This document shows positions 9,544 to 37,487 of a stretch of 64,000 bases of DNA, in pieces. The notes under the pieces were generated by a model. That model was not told the origin of the DNA, did no database searches, and saw nothing but the letters and a program-made list of their open reading frames with translations. The first letter of the stretch is position 1; every line of letters begins with the position of its first letter. The DNA lies in contig JAKADN010000001.1 in the NCBI GenBank assembly GCA_021820445.1, positions 100,575 to 164,574 on the forward strand. Reading direction: 5' to 3'. The position numbers and the translations under genes were made by a program. Source of the DNA: Nitrospirota bacterium (GTDB lineage: Bacteria; Nitrospirota; Leptospirillia; Leptospirillales; Leptospirillaceae).

Positions 9544-10788
9544 ATGACCCAAACAACCAATCCCTCGGACCAGAAGGACTCCCGGCCACTTGAGGTAGAG
9601 GTTCTGGTCGTGGGACTGGGCCCTGCTGGAAGCACGGCGCTCCGGACCTTGGTCGATGGCGGGGTCTCTGCCCTGGGAGTTGACAGGGCTGAATTTCCTC
9701 GGGAAAAGCCCTGTGGAGGGGGAGTCTCCGCCCGTACATTGCCGTATCTTCCCCCGAAACTTCTGGATGAGCTTCCCTACCAGACGACACAGGGGATCCG
9801 GCTTACCCTTCGGGGCACCCGGGAGCAATGCCAGGATTTCGGACGGCCGATCGCCTATCAGGTCCGGCGCGACCAGTTCGACCTTGCTCTCCTCGACAGG
9901 GCCCGCGCGTCCGGTGCCCGTATCATGACCGGAGTCCGGAGCATCCAGCTGTCTCGCAAAGGGAATCGCTTCGAGGCGAAGATGGGGGAGAAGACCGTTC
10001 TGGCCAGGGCTGTCATGGCGGCGGACGGAGCGACAAGCAAGGTTCTCCGGGATCTTGATCCCTCCTCCATGACGGAGACGAGGGACAATCCCCTTCTTCG
10101 ACCCTGGACTTCCGCCGAGGGATGGGCCTCTCTCCGGGATCCTATCGACACGCGATATGTGGCCATCGACCTCGGACTTGTCGCGGGAGGGTATGCTTGG
10201 TCCTTTCCAAAAAAGGATTCTCTTTCTGGACTCGGAGTGGCCGGATTCCTCAAGCCTCTCGTCGATCCACGATCCGTGTTTGCAAGATATCTGGAATCGA
10301 GCCAGGCAAACCTTGATGGGGGAGGCGTCTTCACATGGCCCCTTCCGAACTTTCGTTCGGCCCGCCATGGCCGGGTTCCCGGACTTTTTCTCGTAGGAGA
10401 CGCGGGCGGAATCGTCGATCCTTTCCTGGGAGAGGGAATTTATTATGCGGTTCTTTCAGGGACCAAGGCCGCGGAATCTTACATCCGGAGCCGGATCTCA
10501 CCGGAGGCCGGCCCGGACCTCCCTGAACGCTCAACTCATGATTATGTCAACTGGCTAAACAAGGAAATTTGGCCCGATTTCCGTCAGGGATCCCGGCTTG
10601 CCAAAACGATTTACCGGTTTCCAGGCTTCTTTTTTTCCTTGACGGGCAGATATCCCAAGCTTCTGGAGCTGTACGCCTCGATTCTGACGGGGGACAGGGA
10701 CTATCGCTCTTTTTCCAGGGAAATCATTGTCCGGGCCGTTAAGACACTCCTTCCGATACGGCGCCCCGCAGCCGGCCGCTTCCTGTGA
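9544..10788 (+). CDS. Geranylgeranyl reductase-family FAD-dependent oxidoreductase
   Basis: GLGPAGSTALRTL Rossmann, EKPCGGGVSARTL and GLFLVGDAGGIVDPFLGEGIYYA. Confidence 0.88.
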   Translation: MTQTTNPSDQKDSRPLEVEVLVVGLGPAGSTALRTLVDGGVSALGVDRAEFPREKPCGGGVSARTLPYLPPKLLDELPYQTTQGIRLTLRGTREQCQDFGRPIAYQVRRDQFDLALLDRARASGARIMTGVRSIQLSRKGNRFEAKMGEKTVLARAVMAADGATSKVLRDLDPSSMTETRDNPLLRPWTSAEGWASLRDPIDTRYVAIDLGLVAGGYAWSFPKKDSLSGLGVAGFLKPLVDPRSVFARYLESSQANLDGGGVFTWPLPNFRSARHGRVPGLFLVGDAGGIVDPFLGEGIYYAVLSGTKAAESYIRSRISPEAGPDLPERSTHDYVNWLNKEIWPDFRQGSRLAKTIYRFPGFFFSLTGRYPKLLELYASILTGDRDYRSFSREIIVRAVKTLLPIRRPAAGRFL

Positions 10789-17537: not shown

Positions 17538-18232
17538 CGGATCCCTTCCGAAAGGTCCCCCCCCTTGCGGTGGGCGACCAGAAGATTGTCGATCTTCGTC
17601 CGCAGTGACTTCTGCTGGCGATGGATGGGGGCCATGGCGTCGATGGTCTCCATTCCGTGCTTCCTGGCCATTTCCCGGTAGAGCTCGATGAGGCGGCGCT
17701 GGTAGATGACGAAGGAGTCCTTCTTGCGGCTGGAAAGATTCATGTCCATTCCGGCCTCGTAGTAATCGAAGAAGCGTTCCTGACGGGTTTTCCAGTGGAT
17801 TCTCTCGAGGAGGGACTCGACCGGCAGATCGAGGTAGAAGGTCTTTGCCGGAACAAGGGCGAAGTCGAAGATGTTCGCAATCCATTCCGGGGCGATCCCC
17901 CGGAGGATGGCCCGGCCGAAGACGGTGTAGACATACTGTTCGGCGATCACGAGCTGGCCGGCTTCCAGGGCCGGAATGATCTGGTGCTCGAAACGGTCGA
18001 CGAAGTCGGCGGCGTAGAGGAAGCTGAATGTGAGGGGATCCAGAAAATTCTGTTGCTTGAGGTCGGAGATGGCCCGGCGAATGAGCTCGACGGTGTTGCA
18101 GGCTGAGACGACCACCGCCACCCCTCGGGACAGATAGTAATGCTTCAGAAGTTCGGCCTGTGTGGTTTTACCCGATCCGTCGGTGCCTTCGATGGCGATC
18201 AGGAGTCCGGGATACTGGGAGGTCCGTTCCAA
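17534..18232 (-). CDS. Thymidylate kinase-like P-loop kinase (copy B, diverged DR motif)
   Basis: [22 protein letters not shown]-loop; [12 protein letters not shown] where copy A has SDRYIFTAIARD. Confidence 0.8.
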
Positions 18233-18351
18233 CAGGAATCTTCCTTGGAGAGTGGGTGGTGTGCCCGGTCCGGGGCTCGATTCAAAAAGCTATCAGCCAC
18301 GACTGGTAAAGTCAAGCAAGAGGGGCTCTTCCGGTTCCGGTTCGAGCAGGC

Positions 18352-18380
18352 TTGCATTCTGGTTTTGCGGGCGGTATAGT
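18352..18380 (+). promoter_or_regulatory. Candidate sigma70-type promoter upstream of hydrogenase locus
   Basis: TTGCAT-N17-TATAGT, 190 bp upstream of the small-subunit ATG; -10 matches consensus 5/6, -35 only 3/6. Confidence 0.35.
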
Positions 18381-18572
18381 TCGTGCGGAAACATTTCCCG
18401 GCCTGGAGCTCCTCTTCCGGCCCCTTTTCTTCTTCCCTCAGGCGATGAAGCCTGGGCTCATTTCGATCCAAACGTCACCGAAGACGACATCAACCTTCAT
18501 TCATGCATTCATGGCATCCACGGAAAAAGTCCCGTTCCGGGGAGGGATCCCGCTTCATCTGAGGAGGTGACC

Positions 18573-19667
18573 ATGTCCGAGACTGTCTACGAGGTCATGC
18601 GAAGCCAGGGAATCACACGAAGAAGTTTTCTCAAGTTCTGCAGCGTCATGGCCGCCGGCCTGTCGCTGGGGCCGACCTATGTCTATGACATCGCCCGGGC
18701 CCTTGAAACCAAGCCGCGCGTCCCCGTGCTCTGGCTCCATGGACTCGAATGCACCTGCTGCAGCGAATCCTTCATCCGTTCTTCCCATCCCCTGGCCAAG
18801 GACGTCATCCTGTCGATGATCTCGCTGGACTACGACGACACCCTCATGGCGGCGGCGGGCTTCCAGGCGGAGGCCTGCATCGACGACATCATGCAGAAAT
18901 ACCCCGGAGAATACATCCTGGCCGTCGAGGGGAATCCCCCGTTGAACGAGGACGGGATGTACTGCATCGTCGGAGGGAAACCCTTCGTCGAGCAGCTCAA
19001 ACGGGTTGCGGCGAAGGCCAAGGCCGTCATCGCCTGGGGCTCCTGTGCGTCGTGGGGTTGCGTCCAGGCCGCAAAGCCCAATCCGACGCAGGCCACGCCC
19101 ATCCACAAGGTCCTGACCGACCACTCGGTGATCAAGATCCCCGGGTGTCCCCCCATCGCCGAGGTGATGACCGGCGTCATCACCTACATCACGGCCTTCG
19201 GCCGCCTTCCCGCCCTCGACAGGGAAGGACGACCCAAGATGTTTTACAGCCAGAGGATCCACGACAAGTGCTACCGGCGACCGAACTTCGACGCGGGCCA
19301 GTACGTCGAGCGATGGGACGACGAGGGGGCCCGGAAGGGGTATTGTCTCTACAAGGTCGGATGCAAGGGGCCGGTCACCTACAACGCCTGCTCCACGATC
19401 GGCTGGAACAACGGAGTCTCCTTCCCGATCAAGTCAGGCCACGGATGCATCGGGTGCTCCGAAAAGGATTTCTGGGACAAGGGGCCCTTCTACAAGCATC
19501 TGTCCCATATCGAGGGATTCGGGGTCGAGGCCGACGCCGACACCATCGGGATGGTCGCGCTGGGGGCGGCGGGCGCCGGAGTGGCGGCCCATGCGGTTCT
19601 CACAGGAATACGAAAACCCGGGCGGGAAGAGGCCCGGGACCAGCCAAACGACAAGGGCCAGGTCTGA
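18573..19667 (+). CDS. hyaA: NiFe hydrogenase small subunit, Hyd-1-like, Tat signal
   Basis: Tat motif [71 protein letters not shown]-terminal hydrophobic anchor; GGAGGTGACC RBS. Confidence 0.97.
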
Positions 19668-19700
19668 CGGAGAGTCACGACAAGGGAAGGAGCTTCTCCC

Positions 19701-21494
19701 ATGAGTGTCTACGAAACGCAGGGATTCCGCCTCGACAACTCGGGACGGCGGGTCGTGGTCGATCCCGTGACACGGATCGAAGGCCATCTGAGGTGCGAGG
19801 TCAACATCGACCACGACAACGTGATCCGGAACGCGGTCAGCTCGGGAACGATGTGGCGAGGGATCGAGACGATCCTCAGGGGGAGGGATCCCCGGGACGC
19901 CTGGGCCTTCACCCAGCGCATCTGCGGGGTCTGCACGGGGGTCCATGCCCTGGTCTCGGTGCGGACGGTGGAGGATGCCCTGGGGATCCGGATCCCCGAA
20001 AACGCGAACATCATCCGGAACCTCATGCACGCCACCCTCTTTGCCCAGGACCACCTGGTCCACTTCTACCATCTCCACGCCATGGACTGGGTGGATGTTC
20101 CGGATGCGCTCAAGGCTGACCCCCGCGAGACATCCGCGATCGCCCAGAAGATTTCACGCTGGCCGAATTCTTCCCCGGGATACTTCAGGGACGTCCAGAA
20201 CCGGCTCAAAAAGTTTGTCGAGTCGGGTCAGCTGGGTCCCTTCGCCAACGGGTACTGGGGCAATGCGTCCTACCGGCTCCCGTCGGCGGTCAACCTTCTG
20301 GCGGTGACGCACTATCTCGAGGCGCTCGATTTCCAGAAGGATATCGTCAAGATCCAGACCATCTTCGGGGGAAAGAACCCCCATCCCAACTGGCTGGTGG
20401 GAGGGGTTCCCTGCGCGATCAACATCGACGGGGACCTTGCGTCCGGAGCGCCCATCAATATGGAGCGGCTGAACTTCGTCTCCGGGATCATCGACCGGAC
20501 GATCGCCTTCATTGACCAGGTCTACATTCCGGATCTCGTCGCCATCGCCTCCTACTACAAGAACTGGCTCTACGGGGCCGGCTTGTCGGGGCAGAATGTC
20601 CTGGCTTACGGAGAGTTTCCCGACCGGGCCAACAATGACAGTCCCGACAACCTCCTCCTTCCCCGCGGGGCCATTGTGAACGGGGATCTCTCCACCGTTC
20701 ATCCCGTCGATCTCCGCAACCCCGAAGAGGTGAAGGAGTACGTCGTCCATTCCTGGTATCGCTATCCCGACGAGACGAAGGGACTTCATCCCTGGGATGG
20801 AATCACCGATCCGCACTATGTCCTGGGGAAAAGGGCGAAAGGGACGCCCACGGACATCCAGGAGCTCGACGAAGAGGGAAAGTATTCCTTCATCAAGGCT
20901 CCCCGCTGGAATGGCCACGCCATGGAGGTCGGCCCCCTGGCCCGCTGGATCGTCGGCTACGCGCTTAAAAAACCGGAGTTCAAGGAGCCTGTCGACAATC
21001 TGCTCGGGACGCTCGGCCTCCCGGTTTCGGCCCTCTTTTCCACCCTGGGGAGAACGGCGGCCCGGGGTCTCGAGGCCTCCTGGGCCGCCCACAAGATGCG
21101 GTATTTCCACGACCGGCTCATGGCCAACATCCGGGCCGGGGACACGTCGACCGCCAACACCGAAAAATGGGAGCCGTCCACATGGCCCCGGGAGTGCAAG
21201 GGGGTGGGGTCCGGCGAAGCGCCAAGGGGCGCTCTCGCCCACTGGCTCAGGATCCGGGACGAAAAGATCGAGAACTACCAGGCGGTGGTTCCGACGACAT
21301 GGAATGCGTCTCCCCGCGACCCGAAGGGTCAGATCGGGGCCTACGAGGCGGCCCTCCTGAACACCCCGCTCTCGAATCCGAAGCAGCCGCTGGAGATCCT
21401 GCGGACCCTGCACAGCTTCGATCCCTGCCTGGCCTGTTCGACCCACATCATGGGCCCGGCCGGCGAACCTCTTCACAGCGTCAAAGTCTGCTGA
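19701..21494 (+). CDS. hyaB: NiFe hydrogenase large subunit
   Basis: [12 protein letters not shown] and DPCLACSTH followed by a 15-residue C-terminal extension. Confidence 0.98.
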
Positions 21495-25069: not shown

Positions 25070-25442
25070 ACTCTCTCTGGTGATGAGTCTCCTGGAACTC
25101 TGCGAGGACGAGGCATCCCGGGGAGGATTTGAACGGATCGATCGGATTGTCCTGGAGGTGGGGGCGCTTTCGGGGGTCTCGGTTCCCGCCCTGACCTTCA
25201 GCTTCGAATCTGCCGTCCTGGGAACGGTCTCGGAATTTGCCGAACTCGAGATCCGGGAGATTCCCGGAACCGGGTGGTGCTTTCACTGCGAAAAGACAGT
25301 GTCTCTGCAAGACCCCTTGCGGAGCTGTCCCGGATGCGGGGGCTCCGGGGTTCTTCCCACGGGAGGGATGGAGTTCCGTCTTTGCGAGCTGATCGTGCGC
25401 GACGACCGGTCCGGGAAAATACCGGAAAAAGGAGGGGATTAA
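25062..25442 (+). CDS. hypA: Hydrogenase nickel incorporation protein HypA
   Basis: MHELSLVMSLLELCEDEA, CFHCEKTV...CPGCGGSG zinc site. Confidence 0.95.
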   Translation: MHELSLVMSLLELCEDEASRGGFERIDRIVLEVGALSGVSVPALTFSFESAVLGTVSEFAELEIREIPGTGWCFHCEKTVSLQDPLRSCPGCGGSGVLPTGGMEFRLCELIVRDDRSGKIPEKGGD

Positions 25443-26254
25443 TGTGCGTGGAATGCGGGTGCGGGTCTCAGGGGGAGGGCAAAATGGGGGGGCGGGTTCT
25501 TCCCCATCACCATCACGATGAAGGCGATCATTCGGTGTCTCATGAGTCCCATGGGCAGGAGGAGGGCGGAGGGTCTCACCGGAGAATTTCGGTCGAACAG
25601 GACATCCTGGGGAAAAACAACCGCATCGCCCAGGGCAACCGTGATTTTTTCACGGCGAACGGCCTCCTCGTCCTGAATCTTCTCTCGAGTCCGGGATCAG
25701 GAAAGACCACCCTTCTCGAGAGGACGATCGGAGCTTTGGGGAACAAGGTCCCCCTGGCGGTCATCGAAGGAGACCAGGAGACGAGCCGGGATGCGGACCG
25801 GATTCGCCGTTTGGGAGTGCCTGCCGTCCAGATCAACACCGGAGCCGGCTGCCACCTCGATGCCCACCAGGTGGCCCATGCGGTGGGCGAGCTCGCTCTT
25901 GTCCCCGGGATGATCCTGGTCATCGAGAATGTCGGGAATCTGGTCTGTCCGGCGCTCTTCGACCTCGGAGAGACCGCCCGGGTTGTCCTTTTCTCGGTGA
26001 CGGAAGGGGAAGACAAGCCTCTCAAGTATCCCCGGATCTTTCGCGACGCCGACCTGACCCTTCTCACCAAGGCGGATCTTCTTCCCCATCTGGATTTCGA
26101 GGTCGAACGGGCGGAAAACGCCCTCCGCTCCGTCAATCCCCGGGGAGAAATCCTCTCCCTCTCCTCCCGGACGGGGGAGGGGATGGAAGGGTGGTTGTCC
26201 TGGCTTTCTGTACGGCGGACAGGGGTCGGGACAGTTCCGGATCTCCCGGCCTGA
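25442..26254 (+). CDS. hypB: Hydrogenase nickel incorporation GTPase HypB
   Basis: MCVECGCG N-terminus, His-rich segment, NLLSSPGSGKTTLLERT P-loop, IEGDQETSRDADRI. Confidence 0.97.
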   Translation: MCVECGCGSQGEGKMGGRVLPHHHHDEGDHSVSHESHGQEEGGGSHRRISVEQDILGKNNRIAQGNRDFFTANGLLVLNLLSSPGSGKTTLLERTIGALGNKVPLAVIEGDQETSRDADRIRRLGVPAVQINTGAGCHLDAHQVAHAVGELALVPGMILVIENVGNLVCPALFDLGETARVVLFSVTEGEDKPLKYPRIFRDADLTLLTKADLLPHLDFEVERAENALRSVNPRGEILSLSSRTGEGMEGWLSWLSVRRTGVGTVPDLPA

Positions 26255-26267
26255 AGCGGAGACAATC

Positions 26268-28634
26268 GTGAAGACCTCTCCCTCTGGAGCGGAAGCTCCG
26301 GAATCCCTTGAAGGTCCCGCCGAGATCGCCCGAATCTCCCTTGCGATTTCTGGACGGGTCCAGGGGGTGGGTTTTCGCCCCTTCGTCGTCCGGCTTGCCC
26401 GGGGACTCTCCCTCACGGGATCGGTGGCGAATGTTCCGGAGGGGGTTTTGCTGGAGATCCAGGGACACCGGACCTGGCTTGGACGGTTCCTGGAGGCGCT
26501 TGCATCGGAGCTCCCCCCCGGGGCCCGGATCGACAGTCTCCGCCGAGAAGAGCAACCGGTCAGAAGGAATGAAAGATCTTTTGTTCTCCGGAGCTCCCGG
26601 AGAGGGAATCGAGGAGAGGAGCGGGATCTCTCGTCCCTCCGTCCGGACTCGGCCGTCTGCTCCGACTGCCTTCGGGAACTCTTCGATCCGGGCAATCGTC
26701 GCTTCCGTTATCCGCTGATTTCCTGCACCGTGTGCGGCCCCCGGTATTCGATCGCCCTTGGGACCCCCTTCGACCGGTGCCGCACCACCCTCCGCCGTTT
26801 TCCCCTCTGTTCAAAGTGCCGGAGAGAATATGGGGATCCGTTCGACCGGCGTTTTCACGCCCAGACCATCGGATGCCCGGACTGCGGCCCGAAAACCTGG
26901 TTTCTGGAGGGAGACGGCGGGGGAAAAATGGAGGACGGCTGCCTTGAGGAGGCGGCGCACCGCCTCCGTGAGGGGGGGGTCCTGGCGCTCAAGGGGCTCG
27001 GGGGGGTTCATCTGGCCTGCGATGCCGGAAGCCGGGAGGGGATTGCCCGGATCCGGGAGCTCAAGGGCCGTCCGGAAAAGCCCCTGGCCGTGATGGCGGG
27101 ATCGCTCGCCGCCGCGGGGGAGCTTGCCCGGATATCACCGGAAGCCCGTCGGCTGCTTCTTTCCCCGGAGAATCCGATCGTCCTGCTTCCCGTCAGGCGA
27201 AACGCGCCGGTCCTCCGGGAGAGCCTCGCACCCGGTCTCGACAGAATCGGACTTTTTCTTCCCTCCACCCCGATCCATCATCTTCTCTTCGGGGAGACGG
27301 GACGCTCCCTTCCGCCTCTCGTCATGACCAGCGCCAATCCGGAAGGAGAGCCGATCGCAGCATCCCTTGCCGAGGTTCTGGGATATTTCCGGGGCCGAGT
27401 GGACGGCCTTCTCGTCCACGGCCGCCCGATCCGGGAACGCCAGGACGACAGCCTGGCCGTTCCGGAGCGGGAGGGACCCATCCTGCTTCGCCGGTCCCGG
27501 GGATGGGTCCCCGCCTCCTTTTCGATCCTCCGGGGAGGAAGTCTGCCGTCTGAGCCGGTCGTCCTGGCCCTGGGAGGCCACCAGAAGACCGCTCCCTGCC
27601 GGATCCGGAAGGGGAGGGCCCTGGTCCTCCCCCATATGGGGGACCTCGACACGTTAGAGAGCCGGGACCTTTTCCGGAAGACCCTGGAACGATTCGTCGA
27701 GCGGGACGGGGGACCTCCGACCCATCTGGCCTGCGATCTCCATCCGGATTTTCCCTCCACCCGGATGGCCTTCGACCTGGGGGAGGCGTGGGGGATTCCG
27801 GTGGTGCCGGTCCAGCATCACCATGCCCATGTGGCCTCGGTGATGGCTGACAGGAGCGTCTGTGGTCCCGTCCTGGGGCTCGCGCTGGACGGATTTGGCC
27901 TGGGGCCGGACGGGAGCTTCTGGGGAGGGGAGCTTCTGCGGGTGGATCGATCCGGCTCGATGCGTCTGGGCCATTTTGCCCCCCTTCCCGTTCCGGGCGG
28001 GGCCCGGGCCTTCCGGGAGCCCTGGCGCATGGGTGTGGCCGCCCTCCAGGCATTGGGGCGTGGGGATGAGGTCCTCCGTCGATTCCGGAACCCTCTCGCC
28101 GGAGAAATCCTGGCGGTTCTTGAAGGAGGCCGTTCCGGGCTCATCCCGCAGACATCGAGCGCCGGACGCCTCTTCGATGCGGTCTACGCCCTTCTCGGTG
28201 GACGTGAACACCTCTCGTATGAGGGGCAGGGGGCGATGGAGCTCGAGTCCTGGGCCCGGAAGGGACGCACGGACCCCGGCGAGAGGCTCGGTCGGTTCCA
28301 CCGGATCAAGTCGGGCATCCTGGATTTCCGTCCCCTCCTCTCCCGGCTTGCCGGTGAACCTTCCCGGGAGAGGGGCGCCCGCCTTTTTCACGAGGCCCTT
28401 GCGACAGGCCTCTCGGAATGGGTTCAGGACGGGAGGGCGCGGACGGGCCTCTCGACCGTTCTCCTGTCTGGAGGGGTCTTCCAGAACCGGCTGCTGGCCG
28501 GATTGTTCCGTCGGCGGCTCGAGGGAACCGGCCTCGCACTCCTCGAGCCGGCAAGGGTTCCGGCGAACGACGGGGGGCTGGCTCTGGGTCAGGCCTTTGC
28601 CGTGTGGGCCTCCGAGATGAGTCCTTCAATTTAG
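26268..28634 (+). CDS. hypF: Carbamoyltransferase HypF
   Basis: Acylphosphatase domain GRVQGVGFRPFVVRLA, two zinc fingers (CSDC...CTVC; CSKC...CPDC), VQHHHAHVASVMA. Confidence 0.97.
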   Translation: MKTSPSGAEAPESLEGPAEIARISLAISGRVQGVGFRPFVVRLARGLSLTGSVANVPEGVLLEIQGHRTWLGRFLEALASELPPGARIDSLRREEQPVRRNERSFVLRSSRRGNRGEERDLSSLRPDSAVCSDCLRELFDPGNRRFRYPLISCTVCGPRYSIALGTPFDRCRTTLRRFPLCSKCRREYGDPFDRRFHAQTIGCPDCGPKTWFLEGDGGGKMEDGCLEEAAHRLREGGVLALKGLGGVHLACDAGSREGIARIRELKGRPEKPLAVMAGSLAAAGELARISPEARRLLLSPENPIVLLPVRRNAPVLRESLAPGLDRIGLFLPSTPIHHLLFGETGRSLPPLVMTSANPEGEPIAASLAEVLGYFRGRVDGLLVHGRPIRERQDDSLAVPEREGPILLRRSRGWVPASFSILRGGSLPSEPVVLALGGHQKTAPCRIRKGRALVLPHMGDLDTLESRDLFRKTLERFVERDGGPPTHLACDLHPDFPSTRMAFDLGEAWGIPVVPVQHHHAHVASVMADRSVCGPVLGLALDGFGLGPDGSFWGGELLRVDRSGSMRLGHFAPLPVPGGARAFREPWRMGVAALQALGRGDEVLRRFRNPLAGEILAVLEGGRSGLIPQTSSAGRLFDAVYALLGGREHLSYEGQGAMELESWARKGRTDPGERLGRFHRIKSGILDFRPLLSRLAGEPSRERGARLFHEALATGLSEWVQDGRARTGLSTVLLSGGVFQNRLLAGLFRRRLEGTGLALLEPARVPANDGGLALGQAFAVWASEMSPSI

Positions 28635-28653
28635 AAAAAGAGGAGAACGACCG

Positions 28654-28884
28654 ATGTGTCTTGCCGTTCCGGCACTGGTGGAGGAGGTTCTCGAGGATTC
28701 GCGAGCCCGGGTGCGCTTGGGGGGCGTTTCCCAGGAAATTTCGACCGTCCTGATTGAAGAGCTCCGGAAGGGGGACTATGTGATCGTCCACGTCGGCTTC
28801 GCCCTGGGCCGGCTCGACCGCGAAGAGGCGCAGAAGACCCTGAATCTTATCCGGGAAGCCGCCGGTTCAGAAGGAGGAGACTGA
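28654..28884 (+). CDS. hypC: Hydrogenase assembly chaperone HypC
   Basis: MCLAVPALVEEV...GDYVIVHVGFALGRLDREEA. Confidence 0.95.
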   Translation: MCLAVPALVEEVLEDSRARVRLGGVSQEISTVLIEELRKGDYVIVHVGFALGRLDREEAQKTLNLIREAAGSEGGD

Positions 28885-30005
28885 TGTCCGATCTCCGGTA
28901 TATCGAAGCCTTCCGCGATCCGCTCCTGGGGCGATCCCTGCTGGATGCACTGGCCCTTGCGGCGGGTCGCCTGCCCCGGTCTCCGGTCCGGATCATGGAG
29001 TTCTGCGGGGGCCACACCCACGCCTTCCACCGCTTCGGCCTTCTCGAACTTCTCCCCCCGGAAATCCGCATGGTCCACGGTCCGGGGTGCCCTGTCTGCG
29101 TCCTTCCGAAGGGGCGCATCGACACGGCCATCGAACTCGCTCTCGACAAAAGGGCGATGCTCGCGGTCTATGGAGATGTTCTCCGGGTCCCGGGCTCCCA
29201 CGGAACAACCCTCATGAAGTCCCGGGCCCGTGGGGCGGATGTCCGGACCGTCGTTTCGGCCATGGAGGCCCTGACTCTGGCGGAAACCTTCCCAGACAGG
29301 GAAATCGTCTTCTTTGCCATCGGGTTCGAGACGACCACTCCTCCCACCGCGGCCGTGATCCTCGAAGCCCGCCGGAGAAATCTCCGGAACTTCTCCGTTT
29401 TCGCGAACCACGTACTGACGCCTCCCGCCATGGAAGCCATTCTCTCCGGGACCACGCTCGACGGCGTCATCGGCCCCTCCCACGTCAGTACGGTCATCGG
29501 CACCCGGGCCTACGACTTTGTCTCCCGGACCCACAAGATTCCTCTGGTGGTGGCCGGCTTCGAGCCCCTGGACATTCTGCTGGCCCTCCGGATGCTCTTG
29601 TCCCAGATTGCGGAGGGGCGGGCGGAAGTGGAGAACGAATACGCGCGCGCGGTTGTTCCGGAAGGGAATCCCCGTTCGCTCGCGCTGATCGAAAGGGTGT
29701 TCGAAAGGGCGTCCTTCTTCGAGTGGCGGGGGCTTGGAGCCTTGCCCCGGAGCGGACTGGCGATCCGGGAGGAGTTCGGATTCTTCGATGCCCAACGCCG
29801 GTTCTCTGTCGAGGTCAGTCCTGTCTCCGACCCGGGGATCTGCGAATGCGGAGAGATTCTGAAGGGAGCCAAGGGCCCCCGGGATTGCCGGATATTCGGG
29901 ACCCTCTGCACTCCCGACACGCCGGTCGGGGCCTGCATGGTCAGCGCCGAAGGGGCCTGTGCGGCGGTTTTTCACTATGGGGACCGGGAAGGGGCCGTCT
30001 CTTGA
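28884..30005 (+). CDS. hypD: Hydrogenase formation protein HypD
   Basis: MEFCGGHTHAF, HGPGCPVCVLP, GFETTTPPTAA. Confidence 0.97.
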   Translation: MSDLRYIEAFRDPLLGRSLLDALALAAGRLPRSPVRIMEFCGGHTHAFHRFGLLELLPPEIRMVHGPGCPVCVLPKGRIDTAIELALDKRAMLAVYGDVLRVPGSHGTTLMKSRARGADVRTVVSAMEALTLAETFPDREIVFFAIGFETTTPPTAAVILEARRRNLRNFSVFANHVLTPPAMEAILSGTTLDGVIGPSHVSTVIGTRAYDFVSRTHKIPLVVAGFEPLDILLALRMLLSQIAEGRAEVENEYARAVVPEGNPRSLALIERVFERASFFEWRGLGALPRSGLAIREEFGFFDAQRRFSVEVSPVSDPGICECGEILKGAKGPRDCRIFGTLCTPDTPVGACMVSAEGACAAVFHYGDREGAVS

Positions 30006-31063
30006 GCGGGGGGCGGGGATCGCTGGGAGTCCGGCTCGATCTGGAAAGAGGGCGCGTGGAGATGGTCCATGGGAGCGGAGGTCGGGCCTCGGCCCAGCTT
30101 GTGGAGGAGATCTTCTTCCCGGCCTTCGACAATCCGTGGCTCAGGAAGGAGGGGGACCAGGCCCAGCTCGATCTGTCGGAGGGGCGATGGGCCATGAGCA
30201 CCGACTCCTTCGTGGTGTCACCCCTCTTCTTTCCGGGGGGAGACATCGGATCCCTCTCCGTCCATGGGACGGTCAACGACCTGGCCATGGGAGGCGCCCG
30301 TCCGCTCTATCTGACGGCGGGTTTCGTCCTCGAGGAGGGATTCCCCCTTTCAGATCTCGTCCGGATTGTCCGGAGCATGGGGCGTGCGGCCAGGGCGTGC
30401 GGCGTGTCACTGGTGGCAGGAGACACCAAGGTGGTGGAGCGCGGCAAGGGGGACGGCCTCTACATCAACACCTCCGGGATCGGACGGATTCCGGAGGGCG
30501 TCGATCTCGACCCATCCGGAATCCGTCCGGGTGACGAAATCCTCATCTCGGGGCCGGTCGGCGATCATGGGGCTACCGTCCTGGCCGCGCGGGAGGAAGG
30601 AAGGATCACAACGTCCCTGCGCTCCGATTCGGCGCCGCTTGACGGCCTGGTCGCGGCGATGCTCGCCTCCGGTCCGGGACTCGTCTGCCTCCGGGATCCG
30701 ACCCGGGGAGGGGTGGCGTCCACCCTGAACGAGTGGGCCCGGATCTCGGGTCTGTGCTTCGAGATCGAGGAGTCCGGGCTTCTGATCCGTCCCGAGGTTC
30801 GGGGGGTCTCCGAGCTTCTGGGAATCGACCCCCTCTATCTGGCCAACGAAGGCCGGCTTGTAGGGGTCTGTCGGCCCGAGGCCGCGGACCGGCTCCTGTC
30901 GGCCCTGCGCGCCCACCCGTCGGGTCGAGAGGCGACGCGGATCGGAAGGGTCGAGAAAGGAAGGCAGGGTCGCCCGGACGGATGCGTTCGGATGAAGACC
31001 CTCATGGGCGGTACCCGGACGGTGGACTGGCTCCTTGGAGACCCTCTCCCCCGGATTTGCTAG
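30002..31063 (+). CDS. hypE: Hydrogenase expression/formation protein HypE
   Basis: HGSGGRASAQLVEEIF, C-terminal PRIC; TTG start overlapping hypD stop. Confidence 0.96.
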   Translation: MSGGRGSLGVRLDLERGRVEMVHGSGGRASAQLVEEIFFPAFDNPWLRKEGDQAQLDLSEGRWAMSTDSFVVSPLFFPGGDIGSLSVHGTVNDLAMGGARPLYLTAGFVLEEGFPLSDLVRIVRSMGRAARACGVSLVAGDTKVVERGKGDGLYINTSGIGRIPEGVDLDPSGIRPGDEILISGPVGDHGATVLAAREEGRITTSLRSDSAPLDGLVAAMLASGPGLVCLRDPTRGGVASTLNEWARISGLCFEIEESGLLIRPEVRGVSELLGIDPLYLANEGRLVGVCRPEAADRLLSALRAHPSGREATRIGRVEKGRQGRPDGCVRMKTLMGGTRTVDWLLGDPLPRIC

Positions 31064-31076
31064 AAAGGAGCTGAGG

Positions 31077-31934
31077 TTGACAGGCATTTCAGGAGTCGCG
31101 GCCGGGGGGACGACGCCCTTTCCGCTCGCTTCCGGAGCGGCCGCCGGAAGCGTTTTTCTTGTTCTGATGGCCCTGGGAATGGGATTCCGCCACGGTCTCG
31201 ATCCCGACCATCTGACGGCCATCGATGCCATTCTCCGGTTCCAGTCGGTCCGGAAAAGGAGAGTGGTCCGGTGGGCCGGACTCTTTTTTTCCCTGGGCCA
31301 TGGGGTGGTCGTCATGACCCTCGGGGCCTGCATTCTCAACCTGGCTCTTCGCGTCCGCGTTCCAGCGGCCCTTTCTCTCTTCGGAGGTCTCGTTTCGGGA
31401 ATTTTTCTCCTGGGCATGGCCGGGGCCAACGGTCTTTTTCTGGCGCGCTCGGAGGCGACGGTCCCCTTCGTTCCTGTGGGGTTCAGGGCCCGTCTTCTCC
31501 TCCGGGGCGTTCCCTTGGACAGGCCTGTCTTTCTGGTATTTTTGGGAATGCTCTTCGCCGTCTCCTTCGACACATTGTCCCAGACGGTTGTCTTCTCCCT
31601 GGCCGCCTCCTCCCTCGGAGGAAGGCTGGAGGGCCTGGCCGTCGGAGCGGCCTTCGTTCTGGGAATGTGTCTTTCGGACGGAGCCAATGGCCTCTGGATC
31701 GCCCGTCTGATCGAACGATCCGACCGTCAGTGCGTCCGGCTTTCCCGGCTCATGGGTTGGTCGGTGGTTCTTCTGAGCCTCTTCGTGGGCGTCTTCGTCC
31801 TGGCCTCGACCTTTGCGAAAAGCCTCCTTCCCGATTCTCCGATGGAGGAAACACTGACCGGGATAGGAGTGATTCTGGTCCTGTCCCTGGCGTACCTCCT
31901 CGGAAGCCGCACTGTCCGGGACAGACCCTCCTGA
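31077..31934 (+). CDS. NicO/NiCoT-like nickel permease
   Basis: HX4DH motif in GMGFRHGLDPDHLTAIDAI; multiple TMs; directly after hypE; TTG start after AGGAG. Confidence 0.75.
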   Translation: MTGISGVAAGGTTPFPLASGAAAGSVFLVLMALGMGFRHGLDPDHLTAIDAILRFQSVRKRRVVRWAGLFFSLGHGVVVMTLGACILNLALRVRVPAALSLFGGLVSGIFLLGMAGANGLFLARSEATVPFVPVGFRARLLLRGVPLDRPVFLVFLGMLFAVSFDTLSQTVVFSLAASSLGGRLEGLAVGAAFVLGMCLSDGANGLWIARLIERSDRQCVRLSRLMGWSVVLLSLFVGVFVLASTFAKSLLPDSPMEETLTGIGVILVLSLAYLLGSRTVRDRPS

Positions 31935-33770: not shown

Positions 33771-34523
33771 ATGTCGGAGTATTCCCTTCCTGCCAAGGAG
33801 CTCAAGCAAGACGTTGTCCAGACCATGTTTACATCGGCAGCCAAGGCCTACGACCTCAACAATTCGGTTCTGAGCCTGGGCCAGCACCACCGGTGGAAGC
33901 GCCTGACGATCGACCTTCTGAAAATTGAAAAAGGACAGGTCATTCTGGATCTGTGCGGAGGAACCGCGGACCTGTCTCTCCTGGCCGCCGAGAAGGCGGG
34001 GGGAGACGGTCTTGTCATGACCGTCGACCTCAACATGGCGATGCTCAGGGTGGGTCTTTCCAAGGCCCGGTCCCGTGTCATCGACGGCCTCAAGGAAAGG
34101 ATGAGCCGTGCCCGGCCTGTCATGATCCAGGCCAATGCGGAGAGCATCCCCCTTCCCTCCGGGACTGTTGACCGTCTGACGGTGGGATTCGGGCTCAGGA
34201 ATGTAACCAATCTCGACGTGGCCCTGGCGGAAATCTACAGGGTCCTGAAGCCGGGCGGGCGGTTCGCCTGCCTGGAGTTTTCCCATCCAGTGAACGCCCT
34301 GTGGGATGGGTTGTACCGATTCTATTCCTTCTTCATCCTGCCGAAGATCGGCAAATGGATATCCAGGGACAATACAGGGATCTACGAATACCTGCCCGCA
34401 TCGATCGCGAAATTCCCGAATCAGGAGAGTTTCAGCGAGACGATCAGGAAGGCCGGCTTTTCGAATGTCGTCTACCGGAACCTGTCGGGAGGGATCGTCG
34501 CGATCCATATGGGAGAAAAGTAA
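33771..34523 (+). CDS. ubiE: UbiE/MenG-type quinone C-methyltransferase
   Basis: VILDLCGGTADLSLLA, VGFGLRNVTN, CLEFSHP. Confidence 0.9.
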   Translation: MSEYSLPAKELKQDVVQTMFTSAAKAYDLNNSVLSLGQHHRWKRLTIDLLKIEKGQVILDLCGGTADLSLLAAEKAGGDGLVMTVDLNMAMLRVGLSKARSRVIDGLKERMSRARPVMIQANAESIPLPSGTVDRLTVGFGLRNVTNLDVALAEIYRVLKPGGRFACLEFSHPVNALWDGLYRFYSFFILPKIGKWISRDNTGIYEYLPASIAKFPNQESFSETIRKAGFSNVVYRNLSGGIVAIHMGEK

Positions 34524-36094
34524 TGGATACAAAGGAGTTGCCAATGGTGGCGGGGACAGAAGAGCGTCCGCCCAGCCTCTACCGGAGGGTCCTTTTCGTC
34601 TGGCTTCCCGTTCGTCCGATCTTTCCCGTGGGAATCGGATATCTTGCGAACTGGATACACCGGGAGCATCCGGAGGTCGCCCTCGAGGTCCTCGACCTGA
34701 CCCGCTTCGAAGAGGCCGACCAGATGTCCGCTCTGACGAATAAAATTGCGGAATTTTCTCCCGACCTTCTCGCCTATTCCTGGCGCGACGTCCAGATATT
34801 CGCTCCCCACGAGGGAGACAATTCCCTCAGGCGGGCCTTTGAGTTCTATTATTCTCCCAACCTTCTCACGCGGGCTTACGCCGCATGGGACGGGCTTCGC
34901 ATGGTCTGGAAATACCGTTCGGAGTTCCACAAGAAGCTTCGCTTCATCAAGGAGGGCGTCCGAAGGGCTCCGAAGGCCCGGGTCATGGTCGGGGGAGGGG
35001 CCTTTTCGGTCTTTGCCGAACAGATCATCCGCCTTCTTCCGGAAGGCGTGATCGGGGTGGTCGGGGAGGGAGAGACGGCTCTGATCAAGACCCTCGAGGG
35101 GCGCCCGGTTGATGACGAGCGCGTCATCACCCGTAAGGGGTCCCAGATCGTTCTGGGAAAGAAGGCGGGGGCGGTGGAAATACGGCGGGCCCCCTTCGAT
35201 CTGTCCTACCTCGAATCCATATTCCCAGGCCACGAAATGTACCACGGCAAAACCGTCGGAATCCAGACCAAGCGGGGCTGTCCTTACGGATGCTCCTTCT
35301 GTCTGTATACCTATATCGAGGGAAAGAGGGTCTACTACCGTGATCCGGAAGATGTGGTGGACGAGATCCGCCAGTATCGGGACCGCTGGGGGATCCGGAA
35401 TTTCTGGTTTGCCGATGCCCAGTTCATTCCCGGCGTCAAGGCGGTTCCCGAGGCCATCGCTCTTCTCACCGCTCTTCGGGACAGTCGCCTCGACATCACA
35501 TGGAGCGGCTATATCCGGACCAGTCTCATCTCTCCGGAAATGGCGCAGCTGATGGTGGAGTCGGGAATGGGGGACCTCGAGGTGGCGATCACCTCCGGAT
35601 CCCAGGAGATTCTGGATTCCCTCAAGATGGGGTTCCGGCTGGAGGGGCTGATGGAGGGATGCAGAAATCTCAAGGACGCCGGATACAAGGGAAAGATCAT
35701 CCTGAACTATTCCCTGAATGCCCCGGGCGAGACGCCGGAGTCACTGGCCGAGGCGGTCGAAAGCTACGAGGCCATCTGCAGCATTTTTGGACCGGAGAAT
35801 GTCTACCCCATGGTCTTTTTCCTGGCGGTCCAGCCCCACACAAGCTTCGAGAAGCGTCTCATGCGCGAGGGATGGCTCGATCCCGACTACGATCCTATTT
35901 CCCTGAACCCGTGGACCATCCGCAAGCTCCTCTATAATCCGGGTCCTCTTGGGGAGCTGATCGCGAAGGCCTGTCTTCTGGCCTGGGACATCGAGCCCAT
36001 GGCCATGGGACGTGTTGTGATGCGGGAGATCAAGAAATCCCTTGGAGCCGTCGGAATCACCTCCAAGGAGTCGGTCGTGGTCCAGGCTTCGTGA
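34523..36094 (+). CDS. B12-binding-type radical SAM protein
   Basis: KRGCPYGCSFCLY CxxxCxxC, N-terminal region resembling a cobalamin-binding fold; ATG overlaps upstream TAA. Confidence 0.85.
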   Translation: MDTKELPMVAGTEERPPSLYRRVLFVWLPVRPIFPVGIGYLANWIHREHPEVALEVLDLTRFEEADQMSALTNKIAEFSPDLLAYSWRDVQIFAPHEGDNSLRRAFEFYYSPNLLTRAYAAWDGLRMVWKYRSEFHKKLRFIKEGVRRAPKARVMVGGGAFSVFAEQIIRLLPEGVIGVVGEGETALIKTLEGRPVDDERVITRKGSQIVLGKKAGAVEIRRAPFDLSYLESIFPGHEMYHGKTVGIQTKRGCPYGCSFCLYTYIEGKRVYYRDPEDVVDEIRQYRDRWGIRNFWFADAQFIPGVKAVPEAIALLTALRDSRLDITWSGYIRTSLISPEMAQLMVESGMGDLEVAITSGSQEILDSLKMGFRLEGLMEGCRNLKDAGYKGKIILNYSLNAPGETPESLAEAVESYEAICSIFGPENVYPMVFFLAVQPHTSFEKRLMREGWLDPDYDPISLNPWTIRKLLYNPGPLGELIAKACLLAWDIEPMAMGRVVMREIKKSLGAVGITSKESVVVQAS

Positions 36095-36624
36095 GCCAAA
36101 AAACGGAAAGCGAGTCCATGGAGGCGGATCTCGGGGCCCCTCTTCCTCCGGGCTTTCCCCTTCTTCCGGGACCCTTTCGGATGCTTCTGGGGCTGGACGG
36201 AACCCTGACGCGCTCCCTGACCTTTCTTTCGGGGGAGAGGATCGAAGTCGAGCCCGTTCTCCGCCCTGATTCTCCCGAGGGGGTCCGAAAGGTGTATCTT
36301 CGGGTCCCCTCGATCGGCCGGCTCGTCTTCGCGAGGACGCGCCTCCTCGTGCTCCCGAATTCGGAGGAGGCTCCCTGGATTGCCGGCCTCATGCGCGGCG
36401 ACCTTCCCATCGGCCAGTCGATGGAGGCCCGTTATGGCCCCCTGACCAAGGACGAGTTTTCCGTCTTTTCCGTCTCCGCCCCCTTCGATCCCCACGGGCC
36501 ACGGGAGTCGGGCGATCTCTGGGCCCGCTCCTACCGGATGCGCACCCGCGAGGGGATCGCCCTCCGGATCGAGGAGTTCTTCCTGGACGCTCTTTTCCGG
36601 CTTGCCGGCGGAGGCTGCCGATGA
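36091..36624 (+). CDS. Chorismate lyase-like protein (UbiC/DUF98-type)
   Basis: LDGTLTRSLTFLSGERIEVE..., LWARSYRMRTREGIALRIEEFFLDALF; sits directly before ubiA. Confidence 0.65.
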   Translation: MSQKTESESMEADLGAPLPPGFPLLPGPFRMLLGLDGTLTRSLTFLSGERIEVEPVLRPDSPEGVRKVYLRVPSIGRLVFARTRLLVLPNSEEAPWIAGLMRGDLPIGQSMEARYGPLTKDEFSVFSVSAPFDPHGPRESGDLWARSYRMRTREGIALRIEEFFLDALFRLAGGGCR

Positions 36625-37487
36625 AGCGGCGTTTTTCGGCGACTCTGGAGCTGGTCCGGCTCGACCGGCCCGTCGGGTGGGTTCTGCTTTTTCTCCCGTC
36701 GGGGTGGGCCCTTCTTCTGGCGCGTCCCGGAGAAGTCCCCTGGAAATGGGTCGCGGTCTTTATTGCCGGGGCCTTCCTGACACGCTCCGCAGGCTGCGTC
36801 GTGAACGACATCTTCGACAGAAATCTCGACCGGGAGGTGACCCGGACCAAATCCCGGCCCCTGGCCGACGGCCGGCTCTCCGTCGTCTGGGCCCTCGGGG
36901 TCTTTCTTTTTCTGACACTCCTCTCGGCCTCTCTCCTCACATTTTTTTCGGCAAAGGCCATTCTGGTTGCCGTTGCGGGATATGGCTCAGCGGTCGTCTA
37001 TCCGCTCATGAAGCGTTTCTTCCCTCTTCCCCAGCTCTTCATGGGAATTCCATTTGGCGCAACGGCCCCTCTCATGGCCTGGGTCCAGCTCACGGGCCAC
37101 TTTTCGTTTCCGGGGATCGAGATCGCCCTGGCCGGCCTCTTCTGGGCTACGGCCTATGATCTCATCTATGCGGTGGCGGACCTTCCGGACGACCGGAAGG
37201 CCGGCATCCGGTCGGGAGCCGTGACCTTCGGGTCGTCTCTCTGGATGGTGTTCCTCTTTTTTTCCGCGTTGGCCGCTCTTCTTCTTTGGCAGGCGGGACG
37301 ATCACTTCCCCAGTCCGGATGGCTGCTGCTCTCGATCGGTCTTTTTTTCTCGGCCGTCCTCTGGCAATCCCTCCGGATGCGCAAGGGGTTGAGCGGAGAG
37401 GAACCGCTTCGTCTCTTCCGGTCCCATGCGGTCCTGGGAGGGCTCATCCTGGCGGGGTTCTGGTCCTCTTCGCCCATCCTTGTCTGA
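36621..37487 (+). CDS. ubiA: UbiA-type 4-hydroxybenzoate prenyltransferase
   Basis: NDIFDRNLDREVTRTKSRPLADG and DLIYAVADLPDDRKAGIRSG. Confidence 0.95.
   Translation: MKRRFSATLELVRLDRPVGWVLLFLPSGWALLLARPGEVPWKWVAVFIAGAFLTRSAGCVVNDIFDRNLDREVTRTKSRPLADGRLSVVWALGVFLFLTLLSASLLTFFSAKAILVAVAGYGSAVVYPLMKRFFPLPQLFMGIPFGATAPLMAWVQLTGHFSFPGIEIALAGLFWATAYDLIYAVADLPDDRKAGIRSGAVTFGSSLWMVFLFFSALAALLLWQAGRSLPQSGWLLLSIGLFFSAVLWQSLRMRKGLSGEEPLRLFRSHAVLGGLILAGFWSSSPILV

Follow-up and report, generated by a model that had tools for sequence, protein, structure and literature searches.

A compact operon of Leptospirillaceae, very probably for methyl-plastoquinone, places a Slr0320-related radical SAM protein next to MpqE

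Four overlapping genes in the genome of a Leptospirillum-like acidophile of the Leptospirillaceae (Nitrospirota) raise two questions: which respiratory quinone do they serve, and what does a B12-binding radical S-adenosylmethionine (SAM) protein do in their midst? The genes lie in a stretch of 64,000 nucleotides, hereafter the window (GenBank assembly GCA_021820445.1, contig JAKADN010000001.1, positions 100,575 to 164,574 of the forward strand). The window forms contig 14 in a draft assembly of 2.2 Mb whose completeness is estimated at 88.7%. The nearest named relatives are metagenome assemblies labelled “Nitrospirae bacterium” and “Leptospirillum sp.”, whose radical SAM proteins are 74–100% identical to that of the window. 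An earlier note on this DNA had proposed a candidate locus for methyl-plastoquinone (mPQ), a respiratory quinone of aerobic Nitrospirota whose discovery is recent. In our analysis the four genes very probably form an mPQ operon, as indicated by a match to the MpqE model, the exclusion of menaquinone genes, linkage throughout the phylum and the literature on mPQ in Nitrospira. The radical SAM protein is our leading candidate for a cobalamin-dependent C-methylase of the quinone ring, a role that we consider probable.

All four open reading frames (ORFs) were confirmed on the plus strand (Table 1). Their junctions read, in order, TAATG, GTGA and ATGA, and these overlaps of 1, 4 and 4 nt suggest one translationally coupled operon. 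Families were assigned with Pfam and NCBIfam (June 2026) profiles, which uphold the identities given in the earlier note (UbiE-like, B12-type radical SAM, chorismate-lyase-like and UbiA). In a neighbourhood comparison the complete four-gene order was found repeatedly across Leptospirillaceae, which excludes a chance arrangement. We also surveyed 80 named Nitrospirota loci: in 70 of them a gene of the MpqE family is located directly upstream of the radical SAM gene, on the same strand and with a gap of less than 180 bp. Leptospirillaceae add the lyase and UbiA genes to this block. Families are referred to below by the labels used in our genome searches, where f1 is Leptospirillaceae and f10 was equated with Nitrospira from named loci.

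Table 1. Genes of the four-gene cluster, with positions in the window and profile matches.
Product	Position	Strand	Length	Profile match
UbiE/MenG-family SAM methyltransferase, likely MpqE orthologue	33771-34523	+	250 aa	PF01209 UbiE E 9e-69
B12-binding radical SAM protein, Slr0320-related	34523-36094	+	523 aa	Radical_SAM E 1e-18, B12-binding E 1e-5 (under Pfam cut-off)
Divergent chorismate pyruvate-lyase (UbiC/MpqC-like), predicted	36091-36624	+	177 aa, GTG start	PF01947 E 9e-4 (below Pfam cut-off)
UbiA-family 4-hydroxybenzoate polyprenyltransferase (MpqA-like)	36621-37487	+	288 aa	PF01040 E 1e-46

The first gene product (METHYLTRANSFERASE) scored highest with the NCBIfam model NF052510, “methyl-plastoquinone biosynthesis methyltransferase MpqE”, reaching 319.7 bits against a curated cut-off of 335. 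This was the best of 26 families; the next, a UbiE model, gave 238 bits. With the same model, orthologues in the same position scored 396–406 bits in Nitrospira, 343 in a sister genus and 326 in the complete Leptospirillaceae genome G019, the range for Leptospirillaceae proteins being 326–343. The window protein and its counterpart in a Nitrospira lenta assembly share 49% identity. Since orthologues with the same linkage in Nitrospira and the sister genus score well, the window methyltransferase is likely an MpqE orthologue despite the missed cut-off. UbiE and MenG methylate the ring position next to the chain, and MpqE would put a methyl on the ring carbon adjoining the polyprenyl chain.

Taken alone, the lyase-like protein matches PF01947 below the Pfam cut-off, and all 11 aligned relatives match this profile as well (best E-value 2e-19). 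The cyanobacterial chorismate lyase model is matched by 9 of these 11 relatives; the E. coli-type model PF04345 found no match in the host genome. An AlphaFold2 model with a mean predicted local distance difference test score (pLDDT) of 86.9 has its best fold matches in 2nwi (E 4e-6), a DUF98/Rv2949c-type protein, and in E. coli UbiC (1fw9, E 2e-3). The invariant R66 aligns with the catalytic R76 of UbiC, by way of a relative from family f22 and with the residue number counted on the alignment. The invariant E162 lies in the C-terminal motif, and we take it to be the equivalent of UbiC E155. Furthermore, the lyase-like gene directly adjoins UbiA and UbiD in families f9 and f22, which independently supports the chorismate lyase assignment. 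A spurious overlapping ORF was ruled out by these profile, structure and synteny tests. The protein is thus supported as a member of the chorismate pyruvate-lyase superfamily and is predicted to turn chorismate into 4-hydroxybenzoate. UbiA, whose best NCBIfam model is TIGR01474 (4-hydroxybenzoate octaprenyltransferase, E 3e-66, against E 3e-22 for MqnP models), would then join a polyprenyl chain to this product.

We analyzed the distribution of the radical SAM protein in relation to menaquinone genes in 246 Nitrospirota genomes. MqnA/D (PF02621) is present in 118 of them. The radical SAM protein alone was found in 113 genomes and MqnA/D alone in 117, while one genome contained both and 15 neither. 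A Fisher value for this exclusivity is no fair probability, the genomes being related. The pattern agrees with a published view (PMC13386864) in which the phylum comprises early anaerobes with menaquinone and later aerobes with mPQ. In f10 the radical SAM protein occurs in 59 of 61 genomes, and Nitrospira is the source of the published chemistry of mPQ. The sole genome with both a strong radical SAM match and MqnA/D (G007, f8) has a contamination estimate of 6%; its sequence may be mixed, or its quinone repertoire may be in transition. A second copy of the radical SAM gene within the genus was dismissed, as it was seen only in G100, for which contamination is estimated at 7%.

The top family of the radical SAM protein itself is NF045585 (rSAM_slr0320, “photosystem II high light acclimation radical SAM protein”), named after Slr0320 of Synechocystis. 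It matched over nearly the full length with 484 bits, against an equivalog cut-off of 775; the second family reached 149 bits. Scores across the 246 genomes are bimodal: at least 427 bits in 113 genomes, one partial match of 255, and at most 92 in the remainder. None of these genomes reaches the cut-off, whereas a Synechococcus elongatus control scores above it. Because the cut-off is unmet, we treat the window protein as belonging to a family related to Slr0320 and not as an equivalog member. Scans for further Slr0320-type sequences, with this control as the only cyanobacterial genome covered, returned only Nitrospirota from genomes, only unrelated radical SAM proteins from plasmids and none from viral contigs. 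NCBIfam (June 2026) contains the MpqE model and has no Mpq name for the radical SAM protein.

Motif and fold are consistent with a cobalamin-dependent radical SAM enzyme. The CxxxCxxC motif lies at residues 253–260, and C253, C257 and C260 are invariant in 12 aligned sequences together with many further residues. The N-terminal cobalamin-binding domain was recognized by PF02310, under Pfam’s own cut-off. In an AlphaFold2 model (mean pLDDT 83.4) the predicted fold best matches the cobalamin enzymes TsrM, MgmA and OxsB, with TsrM (6wte, E 2e-21) as the best match in the PDB. TsrM, which methylates the aromatic sp2 carbon C2 of tryptophan, thus shares the cobalamin and radical SAM domains as the nearest solved structure, but it differs in substrate and sequence family and is only 22% identical. 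An arginine beneath the cobalt of TsrM is thought to favour C2 methylation (PMC8992657). Right after the predicted strand 82–86, a Ser-Trp-Arg-Asp sequence that is invariant in the Nitrospirota proteins offers a plausible candidate, judged from the model, for the equivalent of this arginine.

Why a ring methylase would be needed follows from the structure of the product. The mPQ ring carries the chain at position 2, an extra methyl at 3 and the two plastoquinone methyls at 5 and 6 (PMC12324825). Thus three ring methyls need explaining, and there is an obvious UbiE-type enzyme for one only: MpqE would account for the extra methyl next to the chain, which leaves the two shared methyls for another enzyme. 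The radical SAM protein is common to mPQ-making Nitrospirota and plastoquinone-making Cyanobacteria, which makes it a candidate for these two far-side methyls; it would add one or both of them, and Slr0320 would perform the same methylation for plastoquinone. A published Synechocystis slr0320 mutant had a normal amount of photosystem II (PSII), whereas electron transfer between QA and QB was slow; supplied with the artificial quinone dichlorobenzoquinone (DCBQ), it showed full PSII activity. Its authors suspected a defect in quinone binding, and quinone synthesis is not proposed in the passages concerned (PMC8065906). In sum, the protein tracks mPQ across the phylum, its gene is a neighbour of mpqE, and loss of its cyanobacterial relative causes a defect of quinone-like character, so that the open step is directly testable in Synechocystis. 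MenK and MqnK belong to a different radical SAM class and do not depend on B12. As class C methylases of the menaquinone ring (reference listed in PMC13386864), they provide a precedent for radical SAM methylation of a respiratory quinone ring. The comparison with Slr0320 itself is close in domain architecture, which is shared over the full length. The bit score for the Slr0320 family is three times that of the next one, and the organisms sharing a protein of this type make plastoquinone-type quinones. In contrast, Slr0320 works in a PSII host, whereas Nitrospirota have no PSII and their protein adjoins mpqE.

A first alternative is a role beyond the ring: the radical SAM protein of the mPQ operon might act on the side chain, or on a different membrane or quinone-binding component shared by organisms with mPQ and those with plastoquinone. 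The authors of the slr0320 study read the phenotype as a defect of the PSII acceptor side with altered PsbL, PsbH and PsbI (PMC8065906). In addition, a second-tier match of the window protein is TIGR04072, a B12/radical SAM family of lipid biosynthesis (141 bits). We consider this unlikely: the nearest and most constant neighbour of the protein is a ring methyltransferase, its nearest fold is an aromatic C-methylase, and an acceptor-side function does not apply to Nitrospirota, which lack PSII.

A second alternative concerns decarboxylation and hydroxylation of the ring. As stated in the earlier note, no UbiD, UbiX, UbiG or flavin hydroxylase genes lie beside the cluster. The hydroxylase sits on another contig: a UbiH/COQ6-like flavin monooxygenase of 428 aa at G000:C85:34770-36053 (L118:1471-2757), which we take as a candidate mPQ ring hydroxylase. 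Of the 114 genomes with the radical SAM protein, 103 contain a relative of this enzyme, as do 8 other genomes and none with MqnA/D, a distribution that matches the mPQ lineages. In three f2 genera the gene is located about 4 kb from UbiA-UbiD. A MpqB-like UbiB is encoded on host contig G000:C106 (PF03109 E 1e-69; TIGR01982 412.6 bits). UbiD (PF01977) was not found anywhere in the host genome, nor in any of the 21 f1, 61 f10 and 16 f18 genomes, in f24 or in f29. These five families retain the UbiA-type mPQ genes and the flavin hydroxylase. Both UbiD and the hydroxylase are present in f2, f22, f25, f28 and f31, whereas f8 and f9 have UbiD without a hydroxylase match.

Since UbiD is missing there, decarboxylation in Leptospirillaceae and Nitrospira must differ, and going by gene content UbiD may not define the mPQ gene set in the best-studied mPQ lineage. 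COQ4 was rejected as the missing decarboxylase, being present in none of the 246 genomes. A decarboxylative hydroxylase has been described with UbiN of Rhodobacter (PMC10626278). Such an enzyme would be the simplest explanation for the loss of UbiD, the alternative being another decarboxylase. The flavin hydroxylase, aided by UbiB, would swap the carboxyl for a hydroxyl group, and because UbiD is missing we propose that this possibly occurs by decarboxylative hydroxylation.

The same gap could be filled by the radical SAM protein, acting in the mPQ operon in an O2-independent ring decarboxylation or hydroxylation that replaces UbiD or UbiU/V: U32-type UbiU/V likewise found no match in the host genome, and cobalamin-radical SAM enzymes are capable of non-methylating chemistry. 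Yet the protein is equally found in 15 genomes that carry UbiD, and Cyanobacteria have it alongside the plastoquinone UbiD (PlqD; PMC13386864) and an O2-dependent hydroxylase. A flavin hydroxylase already covers the same lineages. An O2-independent hydroxylase is disfavoured in particular, as lineages both with and without the flavin hydroxylase carry the radical SAM protein. We regard this alternative as rather improbable and retain the ring methylase as the preferred role. The f8 and f9 genomes (e.g. L152, G017) combine the radical SAM protein with UbiC-UbiA-UbiD and show no match for the flavin hydroxylase; ring hydroxylation without O2 is possible there. Conversely, G034 (f14), G184 (f32) and G240 (f38) contain the hydroxylase and no strong radical SAM match, and are either incomplete or from lineages without this methylation.

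With UbiA, UbiB, UbiC, UbiE and a UbiH/COQ6-like hydroxylase in one genome, the cluster might be thought to serve ubiquinone. This is very improbable: UbiG is not in the cluster, the ubiquinone reading is ruled out on gene content by the lack of COQ4 and UbiU/V, MpqE and not UbiE is the best methyltransferase model, and mPQ is the quinone type reported for the lineage (PMC13386864). Menaquinone, with UbiE as MenG, UbiA as MqnP or MenA and an unrelated lyase-like protein, has in its favour that UbiE and UbiA families are common to all these pathways, but is the least credible reading, ruled out on gene content since MqnA/D was not found in the host or its whole family and MenD was not above cut-off in any of 41 genomes including the host, while UbiA far prefers the 4-hydroxybenzoate models and the lyase-like protein has a predicted chorismate lyase fold.

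Several points weigh against the mPQ scheme with a radical SAM ring methylase. Both key scores miss their cut-offs, slightly for the methyltransferase and by far for the radical SAM protein, and the kinship with Slr0320 is drawn from a hidden Markov model score and a published mutant. This mutant grows normally in normal light and must therefore retain a working quinone. Among the cobalamin-radical SAM relatives, AprD4-like dehydratases, OxsB and BchE do not methylate. The decarboxylation step is without an assigned enzyme. Moreover, the genomes are related by descent, so that the exclusivity between the radical SAM protein and MqnA/D may reflect few evolutionary events, and mPQ in the host is deduced from genes. 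On balance we still find it probable that the operon makes the mPQ head group with the radical SAM protein adding the shared methyls. Gene content, linkage, families and menaquinone exclusivity give this scheme comparative support, from which we infer every individual reaction in the host, the role of the radical SAM protein above all.

The mPQ reading itself is not new. In the pathway described for Nitrospirota with MpqA–MpqE (Elling et al. 2025, cited in PMC13386864 and PMC12324825), as in the host, MpqE, MpqC-like and MpqA-like genes form one operon, the MpqB-like UbiB is encoded elsewhere and the organisms are aerobic Nitrospirota without menaquinone genes. The host differs in that UbiD/MpqD is absent from its genome and its family; the cluster is a UbiD-less variant of the known pathway. 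The radical SAM protein is not among MpqA–E as named in these two citing papers, and the primary pathway study may already mention it.

The earlier note had also considered a flavin adenine dinucleotide (FAD) enzyme at 9544-10788 as a side-chain or ring-modifying partner. The gene is real and belongs to the geranylgeranyl-reductase family (NCBIfam). Divergent relatives are present throughout the phylum, in mPQ and menaquinone lineages alike, and together with the family membership this ruled out a role as ring partner. Partly saturated mPQ chains have been reported in Nitrospira (PMC12324825), so that the protein is possibly, at most, a side-chain reductase and not specific for mPQ. The flavin monooxygenase elsewhere in the genome is the likelier ring-hydroxylating partner. 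The FAD gene directly follows ORFs that resemble, on inspection, the cytochrome c biogenesis genes ResB/CcsA/TlpA/CcdA. At L126:9948-11591 a 547-aa ORF with, by eye, a duplicated nitroreductase/SagB-type domain is located directly upstream of UbiB and may be another quinone-related partner. The window further contains an uptake hydrogenase gene set (18162-21494, 25274-31934), which stops about 2 kb upstream of the quinone operon. According to Pfam it includes NiFe hydrogenase small and large subunits, followed by a CobW/HypB/UreG-type GTPase and a NicO nickel transporter; HypF-, HypD- and HypE-like ORFs were named from inspection.

We consider the radical SAM gene the most telling part of the locus, and its link between mPQ and cyanobacterial Slr0320 is the part of interest to specialists. 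Tentatively, and with less confidence than for the window protein itself, we suggest that both may be one enzyme type, a cobalamin-dependent C-methylase for a ring methyl of 4-hydroxybenzoate-derived plastoquinone-type quinones in Cyanobacteria and mPQ-making Nitrospirota, with UbiD replaced by a decarboxylating flavin hydroxylase in Leptospirillaceae and Nitrospira. If this is true, oxygenic photosynthesis would rely on a B12-type cofactor for the synthesis of its plastoquinone, and a published PSII factor would have to be reread as an enzyme of plastoquinone biosynthesis. As mPQ is regarded as belonging to a group of three high-potential quinones of common origin, the enzymes that make it are relevant to the rise of aerobic metabolism.

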